21,856 bases of DNA from a virus. Location of the stretch: positions 1-21,856 of IMG/VR virus record IMGVR_UViG_3300025897_001451. The stretch is one strand, 5' to 3'. Below, one piece after another: positions 4,196 to 21,264 of the stretch (position 1 is its first letter; each line of letters begins with the position of its first letter). A model generated the notes under the pieces. That model did not search any database. It saw only the letters and a list, made by a program, of their open reading frames with translations, and was not told where the DNA came from. The position numbers were made by a program, and so were the translations under genes.

Positions 4196-5026
4196 TTATA
4201 CCTTGCCTATTTTTTCTAGTGCTGGAATCATACGTGTTATACCTATGCCTCCGCCTACTCTTTGAAAGAAGTCAAACTCTAAAAACTTTTCTAGTTCTTC
4301 TTCTACTCTATCTTTGCCGAACAGTTCGAACAGTAGTTTTGAGTATGCACCATCTGTAATACTATGGAATGTATCACGCATCATATCAACATCACAACTG
4401 CGTTCTGCTGATCCAATAGTTTCCATACCACCTAGTATAACGTCCATCTTCTTTGCTGTGTTGCCATCATCGTTTCTAGCCATGTTCCAGAAAGGTGATG
4501 TTAGTTCAGGGAAGTTTGTAATAAGTGTTTGACCAAACTCTTTTTCCATTGCAAGTTCGTGTTCTGCTTCCATTTCTGTATCAGCACTTAGTCCAAAGTG
4601 TTGTTGCCATTCAGCATAAGTCTTTTCTGTAATGTTACCAAAGCCTAAGTATTCACATAGTTCATACTCCATTGCTTTTAGATCATCTACACTACCCGGC
4701 ATTTCAAATTCAAACATTGGAAATATTATATCGTGTCTACCTGGAATTGCATTAGGCTCTTGTCTGTAGGAAGTGGAGACACAAAAAAACCCCTTACTAG
4801 AGGGGCTACTTAATAATTCGTGTTCTAGCCACATCTGGCCTGTTTGCGGCAATGGCCAAACCTGGCCTGCGTAGTTGTATGTTGCTACATTAAATGGATC
4901 TTCACATGCGGCAAGTATGCTTAGTCTGTTTTGGGTATGGACTTCTAAAAATCCTTTATCCAAAAAAAATGACCTTAAAAGGCCAACTGTGTTTGTAAAT
5001 TTTTGTGGGTTTATGAGTTGCGTCAT
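4196..5026 (-). CDS. AsnRS/AspRS-like class II catalytic-domain protein, candidate asparagine synthetase
   Basis: The 276-residue protein is essentially a class IIb aminoacyl-tRNA synthetase core. Motif 2 appears as STSYRQEPNA..GRHDIIFPMFEFE, the GGMETIGSAERS segment corresponds to the GG-S-RE region of AsnRS/AspRS, and motif 3 is GGGIGITRM, with the ATP-binding Arg. The N-terminal OB-fold anticodon-binding domain is missing. Known stand-alone proteins of this shape include AspRS/AsnRS-derived asparagine synthetases (archaeal AS-AR) and the related AsnA fold, which amidate aspartate. I chose the ATG at 5026 because AAGGA lies seven to eight bases upstream; an in-frame extension to 5071 is poorly supported. 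A GUU tRNA follows after six bases. It may make free asparagine or act on that tRNA. Confidence 0.75.
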   Translation of the reverse strand: MTQLINPQKFTNTVGLLRSFFLDKGFLEVHTQNRLSILAACEDPFNVATYNYAGQVWPLPQTGQMWLEHELLSSPSSKGFFCVSTSYRQEPNAIPGRHDIIFPMFEFEMPGSVDDLKAMEYELCEYLGFGNITEKTYAEWQQHFGLSADTEMEAEHELAMEKEFGQTLITNFPELTSPFWNMARNDDGNTAKKMDVILGGMETIGSAERSCDVDMMRDTFHSITDGAYSKLLFELFGKDRVEEELEKFLEFDFFQRVGGGIGITRMIPALEKIGKV

Positions 5027-5054
5027 CTTTTTTTCCTTTTTCGAGTTTTGACCT

Positions 5055-5084
5055 AAAAAAAATTTGCTCAAAAAAAATTTGAGC
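5055..5084 (-). terminator. Terminator-like hairpin upstream of the AsnRS-like gene
   Basis: Minus-strand stem GCTCAAA/TTTGAGC (seven pairs, T5 loop) is followed by AAA and eight T. It could end the lyase transcript, or attenuate a transcript entering from the octamer inside the inverted repeat at 5104-5134. Only two or three GC pairs, so strength is uncertain. Confidence 0.55.
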
Positions 5085-15810: not shown

Positions 15811-15936
15811 ATGTCACATTGTCAAAATTGCGGTCATGAACAACATGACGGTCCTCTATATAAAGAACATAAAGACGGAGATAATAAGATTGTTATTATT
15901 GAAGTTTGTAAGCAATACAGAAGTAAAGAAGACTAA
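15811..15936 (+). CDS. Small zinc-ribbon-like protein, 41 residues
   Basis: Begins at the base after the MscS-like stop with AAAGG before it. The peptide starts MSHCQNCGHEQHDG with a CxxC and nearby histidines, and has one more cysteine (EVCKQY), enough for one zinc knuckle. Its last four bases overlap the convergent 565-residue gene. Coupling and composition support a real gene; function unknown. Confidence 0.6.
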   Translation: MSHCQNCGHEQHDGPLYKEHKDGDNKIVIIEVCKQYRSKED

Positions 15937-17630
15937 GCAGTCATATAGCCAGGAGTTGCTGTTTGTTGATCATCATTCCAACTAAAGCTACCAGCTGAAA
16001 TATTTCCACCAACCATCTGTTGTCTAAAGTCTTCTGCATCCTTGATCATAGTATAATCTAAGGTAGAAGTATTTAGAAGCATAATTTCTGTAATACCATC
16101 TGCTAGATGATAACTTGCATATGCAATTTTTGTAAATGCTGGTGTAATTTTATCGAAGTCTATGGTTTTTCCATCACCTTGTCCGGATTCTTTTACAGCC
16201 GCCGCTATAAGTGCATCAGGATCAAATGGTTTATGATGTTCGTTAGGTGTACCTTCTGTTTTTGTTGCAGGTTTATTCAACTCATCATAGTTTCCTACTA
16301 ATCCTGGAATATTTTTTGGCGAACCGTCAATAGCATTTCTAAACAATTTAAAAGTTAAATCAAAATTACTATAAGGTAAAACTTCTGCGTTTAATTTCTT
16401 AAAACCTCCAACAGACCAATTATATCTACTGCCTTCTTTGGATGATTTTTTAGCTTTATTATAGTTGTATTCCTTACCGCTCCAGTTACGTATAGGAATT
16501 TGTTTTACAGTACCATCTTTTTGACCTTGACCAATTGTTCTTGATTCATCGGCGGTTTGCATAATAGCATTTATGCCTTCACTCCAGGCTGCCCAACCGG
16601 TGGTTGCTTTGGCAAATTTTTTACTGTTTAGTCTTCCACCTGTTTTAGCACTAGCTTTGACTTCAATTTCTCTTTTACCAATTTTAAGATCACCCTTCTT
16701 GCCTTTCTCAGCAGGGTTGCCCATCATTGATAGTGCCATCTCACCTGGACCAATCGCACCTGATGTTGTGCCAGGCGAATAACTAAAAATATTTTCCTTT
16801 ATAAAAGCATCAAAAACTTTTGAGTATTGTCCATTTACAAATTGCTTTAGATTTCCTCTAGGAGTATCAATTACCCTTGTCATGTTAAGTACTTTACCAT
16901 CAACACATGCTTGTAAAAATTGTTTGATATCTTCTGGTTTAACTTTGTCTTCTTTTTGCATGTTAATAATTTTACCAAACAATGCTTCTTTAAGAGTCTT
17001 AGTAAACTTTTCTGCGCTCACTGCTTTCTTACGCATTGCTGCATTCATTTTCTCAGCATCTTCCAGCTGGTAACCTTGAACTTTGTTACCAAGTGTAGTA
17101 AGTATACCTGTGACTTCTCTTATAAATTTAACTGCTTCGTCCCTTTGTGCAATAGCTGTATCTCTTTGTTGTCTAATGGTTTCAAATTTTATAGTAATCT
17201 TATCTAAGGATTTTGTAGCCCTTTGTAAAACATTATCTCTCTTTGATGATTCGCCTGCATCATCAACCCGTATTTCAGCAAGTTCCTTATATTGTAGACG
17301 CATTTCTTCTAGTTCTTGTTCTAGCTCTTGATCTTCTTTTTCTATAGCTTTTAATTTTGGGTCGTTATATGTACCCTCTTCGCCTTCGCCTTCTTGTACA
17401 GGCGTATCTATTTTGCCTTTGAAATACTCTATTGCTTTTTTAAGTAATCCGTTGATTGTTTTAATATCATTTGTTAGTGCATTTTTTTCTTGGCTTTTTT
17501 CATCAGGAATGTTAGGAACTGATTTTTTAATAGCATCAATGTCGTGGAGAGCATGTTGTACTTCTAAACCGGCATTAGCCGCTTCAGTTAATCTTCTATC
17601 TATTGATTGTTTAATATCTGTAAAACGCAT
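15933..17630 (-). CDS. Coiled-coil protein with PD-(D/E)XK nuclease-like core
   Basis: The first ~240 residues are charged helices, with a long coiled coil around 95-220 (QELEQELEEMRLQYKEL, FETIRQQRDTAIAQRDEAV). The middle contains GPGEMAL, KKGDLKIGKREIEVKAS and TGGRLNSKKF. Glu297, Asp314 and Glu323-x-Lys325 fit the E...D...ExK arrangement of PD-(D/E)XK nucleases and match phage proteins with a GE...KGD...EVK pattern. The C-terminal 200 residues are globular without a recognised motif. The ATG has GGAG and lies behind a CATAAATA box. It may be a DNA-processing or capsid-associated nuclease. The coiled coil suggests multimers. The nuclease call rests on motifs only. Confidence 0.62.
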   Translation of the reverse strand: MRFTDIKQSIDRRLTEAANAGLEVQHALHDIDAIKKSVPNIPDEKSQEKNALTNDIKTINGLLKKAIEYFKGKIDTPVQEGEGEEGTYNDPKLKAIEKEDQELEQELEEMRLQYKELAEIRVDDAGESSKRDNVLQRATKSLDKITIKFETIRQQRDTAIAQRDEAVKFIREVTGILTTLGNKVQGYQLEDAEKMNAAMRKKAVSAEKFTKTLKEALFGKIINMQKEDKVKPEDIKQFLQACVDGKVLNMTRVIDTPRGNLKQFVNGQYSKVFDAFIKENIFSYSPGTTSGAIGPGEMALSMMGNPAEKGKKGDLKIGKREIEVKASAKTGGRLNSKKFAKATTGWAAWSEGINAIMQTADESRTIGQGQKDGTVKQIPIRNWSGKEYNYNKAKKSSKEGSRYNWSVGGFKKLNAEVLPYSNFDLTFKLFRNAIDGSPKNIPGLVGNYDELNKPATKTEGTPNEHHKPFDPDALIAAAVKESGQGDGKTIDFDKITPAFTKIAYASYHLADGITEIMLLNTSTLDYTMIKDAEDFRQQMVGGNISAGSFSWNDDQQTATPGYMTA

Positions 17631-17649: not shown

Positions 17650-17657
17650 TATTTATG
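17650..17657 (-). promoter_or_regulatory. Late-promoter-like octamer
   Basis: CATAAATA on the minus strand, one mismatch from the T4 late consensus, 20 bases before the 565-residue gene and overlapping the end of the bilin reductase gene. Confidence 0.4.
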
Positions 17658-18381
17658 TTAGTTTAGGAAATAACATATCTGTACAGAAGGTCTCAACTTC
17701 CTGTTCATTTAGGCCTAGACTCTTCATTACGTTAGGAGTATGTGGATTCATTTGCTGATGTGTACAATAATGATTGTGTGCTCCTGCAACTTCGTCTACA
17801 TTACCTGCACCATTATACTCTGATACTTCGTTAAAGTAAGAATGTAGATTACTTAGTGCAATACCTATAATAGTATCTACTTCTTGTTCTGTTTTAACAT
17901 TACCTGCGGCTAACATGTTATCTGAAAATATAGCTTTAGCCCAATCAGGCAATTCTCTTTTCTTTTCAGGAATAAAGTCAACAACAGAGTCATTATACCC
18001 TGTAATCATATCATGTTCTAATTCGCTACTAGGTGAAAAATCATGGAATGCACCAGTTATTTTATTTTTACCAGCAATTACATCAAAGCCGTATATAGGA
18101 GCATTGTTGTTAAGATTAGGAAAACAGCATACATGCATCATCCACAAACCTTTTGTTTGTCTTGCATCTACAACGTCAATATGACAACGACGAAGGCTAT
18201 CATTACGCCATACGCGATTAATCCAGGAACCGTCTTCTTTGTTAAATTGCGATAATCCTGGCTCTTCAAATTCTTCTGCTCTTTCATTAAATATCCTTAT
18301 GATTTCTTCTTGAAGGGAAATAAGTTTATCCCATAACGTAATTGTAGGTTTTTTATCTTCTTGAGTTGCTATTATTGTCAT
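17653..18381 (-). CDS. pcyX: Ferredoxin-dependent bilin reductase (PcyA/PcyX/PebS family)
   Basis: Reduces biliverdin IXa with electrons from ferredoxin to a phytobilin. Family signatures are clear: the GLWMMHVCCFPNLNNNAPIYG stretch with His83, YGFDVIAG with Asp100 (the PcyA-type catalytic Asp), FHDFSPSS, and the C-terminal helix QQMNPHTPNVMKSLGL ending in DMLFPKL. At 242 residues it has the usual length. Its ATG overlaps the nitrilase stop (ATGA), and it is the last gene of the heme-oxygenase cluster. Phage members include PebS and PcyX, both giving phycoerythrobilin; I favour PcyX from the hemO context, but PcyA or PebS cannot be excluded by eye. Family certain, product (phycoerythrobilin versus phycocyanobilin) inferred. 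Confidence 0.85.
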   Translation of the reverse strand: MTIIATQEDKKPTITLWDKLISLQEEIIRIFNERAEEFEEPGLSQFNKEDGSWINRVWRNDSLRRCHIDVVDARQTKGLWMMHVCCFPNLNNNAPIYGFDVIAGKNKITGAFHDFSPSSELEHDMITGYNDSVVDFIPEKKRELPDWAKAIFSDNMLAAGNVKTEQEVDTIIGIALSNLHSYFNEVSEYNGAGNVDEVAGAHNHYCTHQQMNPHTPNVMKSLGLNEQEVETFCTDMLFPKLT

Positions 18382-19241
18382 TCGTACGTAACTCCAAAAA
18401 AGTCGTGATAAAAGTATTGAGTGCCTGATCTAGGAACTTCAGTAACAAATTCTCCTCGTACTACTACACCACTTTCACTACTTGTTTGTCCATGGTATTC
18501 TGTTCCATCCATATGATAACAGTTGTCAACCGTAATAATTGGAATTTCTGACAAGTAAGACATCATAGTCAAATGTGCATGATGCCAGTTGTTAAACAGA
18601 GTCTCCATCTTTTTTCCGTTGCCTCTGAAACCGTTTGTTGAATGGACAAATAATTGCAGATCTTGTCTGCTACCCATATTGTATTGTTGTTTGGCATGCC
18701 AGCATATAGCTTTATGCCCGGACATTCCGTGTCCCCACATATCATTACATACTAATCCTACAACATTAAACTGAAATGTTTCGTTACCTAATTTCCATGC
18801 AAGTAATCCATCTTTATTTGTGTCATGTTCCATAAAAGGTAAGTCTTGTGGATTTATACAGAACGATTTATTAGTTGCTCCTCTTAATTGTCCATCTTTT
18901 GCATAAAATCTAATTTGGTTTCGTCCTATATCTCCAAATCTTTCTTTTTCTTTCCATAGTGTACCTAAGCACAATCCAACTTTATCTTTTGCATATGCTT
19001 CTACAGTTTTTAACCCATCCTCTAGTTCTGATAAATTTTCAAAAGGATCAATACCAAATGTAGTTGCGGCTATTCCTCCATGGTCATAACCGCTTAAAGC
19101 ACCTTCAGGTGTAACTAGATAATCACACCTGTTTTCTACTGCATAGTCTATTGCTTTTTTAATATGTTCAACGTTATCTTTAACTGAAGGCGTACAAGGA
19201 ATTTGTGCTCCTGCCATTCTAACTGGTATCTGTTTTGGCAT
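18378..19241 (-). CDS. Nitrilase-superfamily carbon-nitrogen hydrolase
   Basis: The Glu-Lys-Cys triad of the nitrilase fold is visible: Glu46 in YLVTPEGALSGYD, Lys125 in ATNKSFC and Cys165 in GLVCNDMWGHG. At 287 residues it covers a full single domain. Members hydrolyse nitriles, amides or carbamoyl groups, or transfer acyl or amine groups. Histidine-rich segments (NWHHAHLTMM) near the end are not standard. The ATG overlaps the oxygenase stop as TAATG, and the stop overlaps the bilin reductase start, so it is made together with the bilin enzymes. Role in bilin chemistry is an inference: release of ammonia, or modification of a propionate side chain, are possibilities. Confidence 0.85.
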   Translation of the reverse strand: MPKQIPVRMAGAQIPCTPSVKDNVEHIKKAIDYAVENRCDYLVTPEGALSGYDHGGIAATTFGIDPFENLSELEDGLKTVEAYAKDKVGLCLGTLWKEKERFGDIGRNQIRFYAKDGQLRGATNKSFCINPQDLPFMEHDTNKDGLLAWKLGNETFQFNVVGLVCNDMWGHGMSGHKAICWHAKQQYNMGSRQDLQLFVHSTNGFRGNGKKMETLFNNWHHAHLTMMSYLSEIPIITVDNCYHMDGTEYHGQTSSESGVVVRGEFVTEVPRSGTQYFYHDFFGVTYE

Positions 19242-19879
19242 TAATATTTACTCACTGAAAGTTTGTTTTGTGTATCAAAGTGTATTTTTAAATTGTCTGC
19301 TTTAAAAACAAAATTAATTACTAGTCTATTTTCATGTTCAATAGGACATGTACCTGTATGCATTAAGTTAGCTGGAAATAGAATTGCTCTTCCTTTTTTA
19401 GGTTCTACTTCTCCTACTACTTTCAAATCGCTATATGGCATTGGATCAGTAGTTGATTTTTGAAAAAATCTTGTAGGCCCATCACTATCTCTAATATAGT
19501 AAATCATAGTAAAGTAGTCAGGTGATTTATGATCTGCATGTGGTGGATGATATTTTCCTTTGTATGATTCATCTTTTAAATTCATATTTGTTTTTATTTT
19601 ATGTACGTCAGTTACAGTACACTCTGTTATAGATTCTAAAAAGTATAGCACCATTCTAGTTAATCCAAACGATTCAGGATTATCTTTTCCACCCCAAGAT
19701 GATATATGTACTATTTGAGGACATTCTTTTATATTCTCATCAACAACATCAATTGCGTTTTCTGTATCATTCCCTGATGTAAAAGAAACATAATTCCATA
19801 GTGTTTGATATTGAAACTGTTCTTCAAGCATGTTTTGAATGGTTATTGGTAAAAAATTTTCAATTACTGTATAGCTCAA
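19241..19879 (-). CDS. Fe(II)/2-oxoglutarate-dependent oxygenase in the bilin cluster
   Basis: Prolyl-4-hydroxylase-like fold: His114-x-Asp116 in HPPHADHKSPDYFTMIYYI, His174 in LFPANLMHTG and Arg185 in ENRLVINFVF give a complete iron and 2-oxoglutarate site. It differs from the other oxygenases in the window. The start is a TTG inside the heme oxygenase end, with GGAG seven bases upstream; it gives the expected YTVIENFLP opening, while the first ATG lies 16 codons further in and would cut the fold. It is thus coupled to the heme oxygenase. Substrate unknown; a bilin or bilin-bound protein would fit the location. Confidence 0.82.
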   Translation of the reverse strand: MSYTVIENFLPITIQNMLEEQFQYQTLWNYVSFTSGNDTENAIDVVDENIKECPQIVHISSWGGKDNPESFGLTRMVLYFLESITECTVTDVHKIKTNMNLKDESYKGKYHPPHADHKSPDYFTMIYYIRDSDGPTRFFQKSTTDPMPYSDLKVVGEVEPKKGRAILFPANLMHTGTCPIEHENRLVINFVFKADNLKIHFDTQNKLSVSKY

Positions 19880-20414
19880 GTTCTAACTCCATTAACTCTT
19901 TAAACAAATTTGTTGCCGAAGTGAAAACATATTGTGCTTCCTCAGCCATGTCGTCATTTGTTTTATTTCTGATTGCTTCTTTAAGTTGTTTTGTATCTGA
20001 ATCAAATTCGTACATCGTACCAGCTCCAGGAACTTTTTTTGCAATCATCTGTCCGCCACTAAGGTCTCCCATATGAAGTACGTACACATGAGCCATTAGT
20101 GCATTACTATCATGCATAATGTCTTTCATATGCATAATATAATCTCTTGTACTTTGTGTTAACACCGGCGGGTCAACATGTTTCCAAAGTTCTAAGTAAT
20201 CTTTTTCTATTCGTTGTTTGCGGCTAATACCTGGTAGATCAGTTAGTAAACCGTTAGCACCTGCTAGTGCTTCCAGTAAGTCGTATTTTTTATGTTGGTT
20301 CCAAAGATAAGTGGCATATAAATCTGGGTTTATTTTTCCACTCATTAACACTTTTACAAATTCTTGTCTCTCAGCATCTTTATGGTGCTCCCATGTCAAG
20401 TCTTTAAGACTCAT
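19860..20414 (-). CDS. hemO: Biliverdin-producing heme oxygenase
   Basis: Opens the heme ring to biliverdin IXa, CO and Fe2+, using reduced ferredoxin. The proximal haem ligand is His11 in WEHHKDAE (HxxAE), and the distal helix has GDLSGGQ at 116-122 (HMGDLSGGQMIAKKVPG), the most conserved family motif. At 184 residues it is slightly shorter than the cyanobacterial HO1 type and lacks any membrane tail. The ATG has AGGAG at a good distance. It heads a coupled set with a 2OG oxygenase, a nitrilase-family enzyme and a bilin reductase and so supplies biliverdin to the last. The released iron could also serve the many Fe(II) oxygenases of this phage (inference). Confidence 0.92.
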   Translation of the reverse strand: MSLKDLTWEHHKDAERQEFVKVLMSGKINPDLYATYLWNQHKKYDLLEALAGANGLLTDLPGISRKQRIEKDYLELWKHVDPPVLTQSTRDYIMHMKDIMHDSNALMAHVYVLHMGDLSGGQMIAKKVPGAGTMYEFDSDTKQLKEAIRNKTNDDMAEEAQYVFTSATNLFKELMELELELYSN

Positions 20415-20431: not shown

Positions 20432-20755
20432 TTATTCTTCTTCGACTTTGATCTGTAAAGGGTGTCCTTGTTCTCTACTTGCGGTAGTTGCTTCAACTGC
20501 TTTTTGTTCTGCCACTTCATATGTATATATACCTACAGTACCGCTTCCTTTTGTATGAATCTGGACCATAATTTGTTCTGCTGATTCAGCAGAATGTTTA
20601 AAAATTCCCATCAATATTTGTACAACCCACTCCATAGGAGTTGCGTCATCATTAAAAAAAATAACTTTATACTTAGATGGCTCGGTAATCTTTTGTTCGA
20701 TTAGCTCATCTATCTTTACATCTAAGTCGTGTGCGAATTCTACATCATTATTCAT
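20432..20755 (-). CDS. clpS: ClpS, adaptor for the Clp protease (N-end rule)
   Basis: Adaptor that delivers N-degron proteins to ClpA/ClpC. The core YKVIFFNDDATPMEWVV holds Asn35-Asp36 of the N-degron pocket; His67 in MVQIHTKGSGTVGIYTYEVAEQKA is the second pocket residue. Length 107 and the flexible N-terminal extension are typical. Start at ATG with AGGA eight bases upstream; a two-codon ATG-TAA lies just before it. Adjacent to hsp20 and heme oxygenase. Together with the phage ClpP, it could direct host proteolysis, but no Clp ATPase is in the window, so host ClpA/C would be used. Confidence 0.94.
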   Translation of the reverse strand: MNNDVEFAHDLDVKIDELIEQKITEPSKYKVIFFNDDATPMEWVVQILMGIFKHSAESAEQIMVQIHTKGSGTVGIYTYEVAEQKAVEATTASREQGHPLQIKVEEE

Positions 20756-20808: not shown

Positions 20809-21264
20809 TTAACCTTCGATAGTTGGACCAGCATTGATCTCAATTTTTTTAGGTTTCATTTCCTCAGGAATATCTCTGTGTAAATGAATATTCAACATAC
20901 CGTTTTCAAGTTTTGCTGATTTAACATCTACATGCTCTGCAAGATTAAATTCTCTTACAAAAGTTCTTCCTGCGATACCTCTGTGAAGATAGTTTACTTC
21001 TTCATCGCCTTTAGGTGTTGAACCTTCAATTTTAAGCATATCTTTGTCTTTTTCAATTGAAAGGTCTTCCATTGCAAAGCCTGCGACTGCTAATGAGATC
21101 ATAAACTCATCGTCGTTAAGTTTTGCTATATTATATGGTGGGTATCCTCCAGAACCGTTATTTGGACTGTTTTCAAATACTCTGTCCATTTGATCGAACA
21201 GATTATCAAATCCAATAAATTGTTTGTGGAAACCGGGTAGGTTTAGAGTTGTTAGTCTTGTCAT
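20809..21264 (-). CDS. Small heat-shock protein (HSP20/IbpA family)
   Basis: The alpha-crystallin domain is complete. The PYNIAKLNDDEFMISLAVAG opening and DLSIEKDKDMLKIEG strand, then FVREFNLAEHVDVKSAKLENGMLNIHL with the A-x-L-x-NG-x-L motif, are all present, followed by a PKKIEIN tail containing the I-x-I/V-like anchor. The N-terminal FDNLFDQMDRVF helix is also typical. This ATP-independent holdase prevents aggregation of denatured proteins; it is widespread in T4-like marine phages, where it may assist virion assembly. ATG with AAAGGAG ribosome site; GATAAATA box about 56 bases upstream suggests late expression. Confidence 0.93.
   Translation of the reverse strand: MTRLTTLNLPGFHKQFIGFDNLFDQMDRVFENSPNNGSGGYPPYNIAKLNDDEFMISLAVAGFAMEDLSIEKDKDMLKIEGSTPKGDEEVNYLHRGIAGRTFVREFNLAEHVDVKSAKLENGMLNIHLHRDIPEEMKPKKIEINAGPTIEG

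Follow-up and report, generated by a model that had tools for sequence, protein, structure and literature searches.

Recurring enzyme genes between hemO and pcyX in the predicted phycoerythrobilin cassette of a likely pelagimyophage-like virus

The window, by which we mean the whole stretch of DNA that was analysed, is a 21,856-base IMG/VR viral contig (IMGVR_UViG_3300025897_001451), likely from a pelagimyophage-like virus. It carries a cassette of four genes on the minus strand, the strand of every window gene located below. The cassette opens with hemO (19860..20414), which encodes a phage heme oxygenase of 184 aa (PF01126, 65 bits against a cut-off of 23, E 9e-18) with 44% identity to the heme oxygenase of the pelagiphage Mosig. 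Next comes a gene for a 2OG-Fe(II) oxygenase of 212 aa with a prolyl-4-hydroxylase/PhyH-like fold (19241..19879; PF13640, E 1e-6; phrog_274), whose TTG start lies within hemO, and then one for a nitrilase-superfamily C-N hydrolase of 287 aa (18378..19241; PF00795, E 1e-6; phrog_36475, E 4e-47). The last gene, pcyX (17653..18381; PF05996), encodes a ferredoxin-dependent bilin reductase of 242 aa, predicted to make phycoerythrobilin. Thus, the four overlapping reading frames and the family assignments of the initial annotation were confirmed, as all frames are present and intact and each family match exceeds its Pfam cut-off.

The joints of the cassette consist of a 20-nt overlap between hemO and the 2OG gene, with GGAG upstream of the TTG start, a 1-nt overlap (TAATG) between the 2OG and C-N hydrolase genes, and a 4-nt overlap (ATGA) between the latter and pcyX. 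The TTG start is common to three relatives (L002, L035 and L017). This coupling had been taken as a sign of one pathway, but eight of the 27 other adjacent gene pairs of the window overlap as well, which makes it weak evidence, and we dropped it as proof. Promoter and terminator scans gave no signal above chance. Upstream of hemO lie clpS (20432..20755; PF02617), found at the same position in 50 of 52 loci, hsp20 (20809..21264; PF00011), also in 50 of 52, and a guaB-like IMP dehydrogenase gene truncated by the contig end (21331..21855; PF00478), in 46 of 52. Downstream of pcyX is a gene for a protein of 565 aa with no assigned function and no Pfam or PHROGs match (15933..17630), which is partly conserved among relatives (88% in L002).

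Among ferredoxin-dependent bilin reductases, the window enzyme is nearest to PcyX (5owg, 272 bits, E 5e-80), the best PcyA scoring 58 bits (E 1e-14). It keeps Asp55, the PcyX-specific catalytic residue (PMC11480375), within the motif HIDVVD; this equivalence takes D63 of the 5owg chain as Asp55 once eight tag residues are subtracted. By these comparisons the reductase is clearly of the PcyX type, and the proposal that hemO and the reductase make up a known two-gene phage pathway was borne out. Judging from close homologues tested by others, HemO would open the heme ring to yield biliverdin IX-alpha, and PcyX would carry out the four-electron reduction of biliverdin to phycoerythrobilin (PEB), a pink bilin pigment.

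The window resembles the phage hemO-pcyX cassette (PMC11480375; PDB 5owg) in both enzymes, in gene order, in Asp55 and in its pelagiphage-like block; however, that cassette is described as having two genes, or three with alaS (PMC11480375), whereas the window has four. In Pelagibacter phage Mosig EXVC030M (MT647606), an isolate that infects SAR11, hemO is followed directly by pcyX (51% to the window); this phage also has 2OG genes nearby, but these lie, together with a ferrochelatase gene, upstream of hemO. The pcyA-type reductases of cyanophages are likewise phage-borne ferredoxin-dependent bilin reductases, but they share only 23-32% identity with the window reductase and are not of the PcyX type. 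The block IMPDH-Hsp20-ClpS-hemO-[gap]-pcyX is preserved in nearly all relatives.

Both middle enzymes retain their catalytic residues, as initially claimed. In the 2OG oxygenase, H114, D116 and H174 of the HxD...H metal site, together with R185 for 2OG, are invariant among 26 relatives, and its structural model (pLDDT 89.6) is a double-stranded beta-helix that matches SnoN, PHD2 and P4H (Foldseek probability 1.00). It is the least constrained gene of the cassette, with a dN/dS of 0.29 against 0.07-0.13 for hemO and pcyX. The name of its PHROGs family, phrog_274, is 'DNA endonuclease V', which cyanophage records also give to related genes; this is a misnomer, as Pfam and fold both identify the window member (19241-19879) as a 2OG-Fe(II) oxygenase.

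In the C-N hydrolase, the Glu-Lys-Cys triad (E46, K125 and C165) is invariant among 45 relatives. Its model (pLDDT 90) has a nitrilase fold, aligning to 6lei with a Z of 28.6 over 254 residues. By structure, N-carbamoyl-D-amino acid hydrolases rank first (Z 28.6), with amidases, Nit2 and the glutaminase domains of NAD synthetases within about 2 Z units, and these many ties led us to reject an assignment of substrate from structure. At least 214 viral proteins belong to the family, and most of their genes adjoin unrelated ones; they occur in tandem arrays or next to peroxiredoxin, carbamoyltransferase, QueD-like or T4 core genes. The phrog_36475 hydrolases of P-SSM2 and Sf-FS3, 37% identical to that of the window, sit among sugar or T4-core genes and not, as here, in a bilin locus. 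In several marine viruses (L106, L129, L138, L140 and others), two or three paralogous hydrolase genes stand in tandem. The contigs of L055/L009 have a second hydrolase gene (L086/L087) at a distance of about 8 kb from pcyX, an exception to the placement between hemO and pcyX described below. A run of genes for 183 aa, a hydrolase and 240 aa (L080/L086) was considered as a second hemO-reductase cassette and rejected, the flanking products being a peroxiredoxin and a protein of no assigned function.

To place the window among its relatives, we compiled two sets of pcyX loci, 137 in total, which gave 87 lineages after dereplication; these represent the best 80 per search of at least 525 pcyX contigs. 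hemO lies upstream of pcyX in all but three of the lineages, in which it was not seen, although adjacency is not universal. The interval between the two genes, hereafter the gap, holds nothing in 60 lineages and, in five, one small ORF (about 90 aa), the sole non-enzyme cargo. Enzyme genes occupy it in 19: a halogenase-like gene in ten, halogenase-hydrolase in two (L037 being assigned manually), a hydrolase in two, 2OG-hydrolase in three, 2OG in one (L004), and hydrolase-hemO-2OG in one (L017). Counted by family, this amounts to 12 lineages with a halogenase-like gene, eight with a C-N hydrolase, five with a 2OG oxygenase and one with a second hemO. The arrangement of the window is thus restricted, among the 87 lineages, to itself and its two nearest relatives, L002 and L035, so that the four-gene order is not conserved across hemO-reductase phages. 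With 60 of the 87 having no gene there, PEB synthesis would not require the middle enzymes. The idea of a fixed four-gene pathway therefore largely fails, most relatives lacking the middle genes in the gap, which is much of what the initial annotation had named as refuting it; what stands is that their placement is probably non-random.

This last point comes from profile searches of 49 whole pcyX contigs (2.51 Mb). All eight genes found with the C-N hydrolase profile are in the gap, as are 18 of the 21 of the halogenase family; for the close 2OG family, four strong matches fall in the gap, and two weaker ones, besides faint ones, elsewhere. Assuming a mean gene of 750 bases, the gap represents about 1.5% of gene junctions. 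On the pcyX tree the minimum number of changes is four for hydrolase presence, three for 2OG and two for halogenase, and the chance of four independent placements in the gap is about 5e-8, or about 2e-4 for two, which are rough figures as the four changes may include losses. The eight gap hydrolases do not group cleanly, a single clade of them having a p-AU of 0.012, with long branches; the tree tests were compatible with a single origin for six core gap hydrolases (p-AU 0.19) and for the five gap 2OGs (p 0.079); hydrolase dS relative to L002 is saturated. Chance probably does not explain the presence of these enzymes in the gap, and the claim that tailoring-type enzymes lie between hemO and pcyX holds well beyond the window.

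Of the related findings, the most striking lies outside the window: 12 lineages have a halogenase-like gene in the gap. In the first search, 24 of 58 contigs had such a gene (PF04820, tryptophan-halogenase-like) at this position (for example L029:4493-6013, L034:3531-5099 and L043:4505-5998, among others). Among solved structures, tryptophan 6-halogenases are the best relatives, every copy has the WxWxxP and EPLES motifs, and the catalytic Lys is present in the copies inspected. We had considered this gap gene of about 1.5 kb, shared by many relatives, as the published alaS, which Pfam and PDB searches led us to reject.

Other variants were recorded. The cassette with a second heme oxygenase (L017:1129-4617) runs hemO-hydrolase-second HO-2OG-pcyX and so contains two divergent heme oxygenase genes. 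An AlaS-like gene (cluster 49) lies on the opposite strand upstream of hsp20 in L019, L027 and L059, consistent with published alaS cassettes, and clusters of curli-like (CsgG-like) genes occur downstream of pcyX in L006, L008, L013 and many relatives, both names being given from sequence only. Curli genes in pelagimyophages have already been published (PMC7029224). The window itself encodes, at 4196-5071, a short class II aminoacyl-tRNA-synthetase-like core of D/K/N type (291 aa), which could be an amino-acid ligase.

How the gap enzymes relate to bilins may be read in different ways. They may be general tailoring cargo with no bilin link, drawn from a pool of 2OG, hydrolase and halogenase-like genes that marine T4-like phages would use on sugars, proteins and small molecules, and landed behind hemO because insertion is tolerated there and transcription is good. 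We consider this possible, if somewhat doubtful. It agrees with the frequency of gene overlaps in the window and with the company that these families keep elsewhere: a sugar locus of cyanophage S-SSM7 combines a 2OG relative with halogenase and carbamoyltransferase genes, 2OG and halogenase genes occur together in HTVC008M, hydrolase pairs adjoin carbamoyltransferase and glycosyltransferase genes, and the Sf-FS3 hydrolase is found among sugar genes. Moreover, a close relative of the window 2OG (L146, 61% identical) lies outside any bilin locus, next to glycosyltransferase-like and radical-SAM-like genes, as named by sequence alone. However, a permissive site should gather other phage genes too, and apart from the short ORF only metabolic enzymes were found; the gap holds every hydrolase of the 49 contigs; and the neighbouring junctions of the block carry different cargo, namely chaperones and alaS-like genes, which makes the gap selective in its content.

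Alternatively, the cassette would serve to break down heme for iron and nitrogen in SAR11, with HemO freeing iron, PcyX clearing reactive biliverdin, and the hydrolase and 2OG oxygenase degrading the product further or releasing ammonia for phage growth. For these phage genes, a part in supplying iron has been discussed (PMC11480375), the hydrolase is by fold a nitrilase-superfamily amidase, and Mosig, with its SAR11 host, is related; but the product of PcyX-type enzymes is a specific pigment, a wasteful outcome if degradation were the sole purpose, the alaS-like gene close by in some relatives would favour tetrapyrrole synthesis, and the ammonia-releasing substrate is putative. We consider heme breakdown quite improbable.

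Based on the gene order, the intact catalytic residues and the repeated placement of such enzymes in the gap, we favour, with a probability of roughly 0.5, that the window contains the known PEB cassette of a pelagimyophage-like virus fitted with lineage-specific, interchangeable accessory enzymes, which would take part in the same pathway or process its by-products; that shared pathway, its substrates and its products are what we infer. The gap would be a favoured site for enzyme genes, in which, here, the 2OG oxygenase and the C-N hydrolase would be translated along with the cassette. During infection, the two enzymes would have the tetrapyrrole pathway or its by-products as their target, and could for instance hydroxylate a bilin or cleave an amide or carbamoyl group. 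As the enzyme set varies between lineages, these would be optional accessories rather than fixed steps of the pathway. Several observations speak against a role dedicated to bilins: the C-N hydrolase and 2OG families occur mostly outside bilin loci, this phage is rich in 2OG genes (three further clear matches and one weak one in the window), and the 2OG gene evolves faster than hemO and pcyX. One narrower form of the same-pathway reading is that pelagimyophages make families of modified bilins, with PEB tailored by the gap enzyme into novel halogenated, hydroxylated or deamidated products, in phages of hosts that are non-photosynthetic; we regard this as unlikely. The modified phytobilin proposed in the initial annotation is possible.

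The first description of pcyX is reportedly a paper from 2016. Our coverage, which extended to literature searches and to the main text of PMC11480375 and PMC7029224 but not to that first paper, returned no description of a gap with enzymes; specifically, the main text of PMC11480375 makes no mention of a C-N hydrolase, 2OG or halogenase-like gene in this position.

The recurring gap enzymes, some of them halogenase-like, bear on the question of why phages whose SAR11 hosts have no phycobilisomes make bilins. They provide a concrete and testable hint that some lineages may end with a product other than plain phycoerythrobilin, and the small size of the cassettes would allow their co-expression in E. 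coli.
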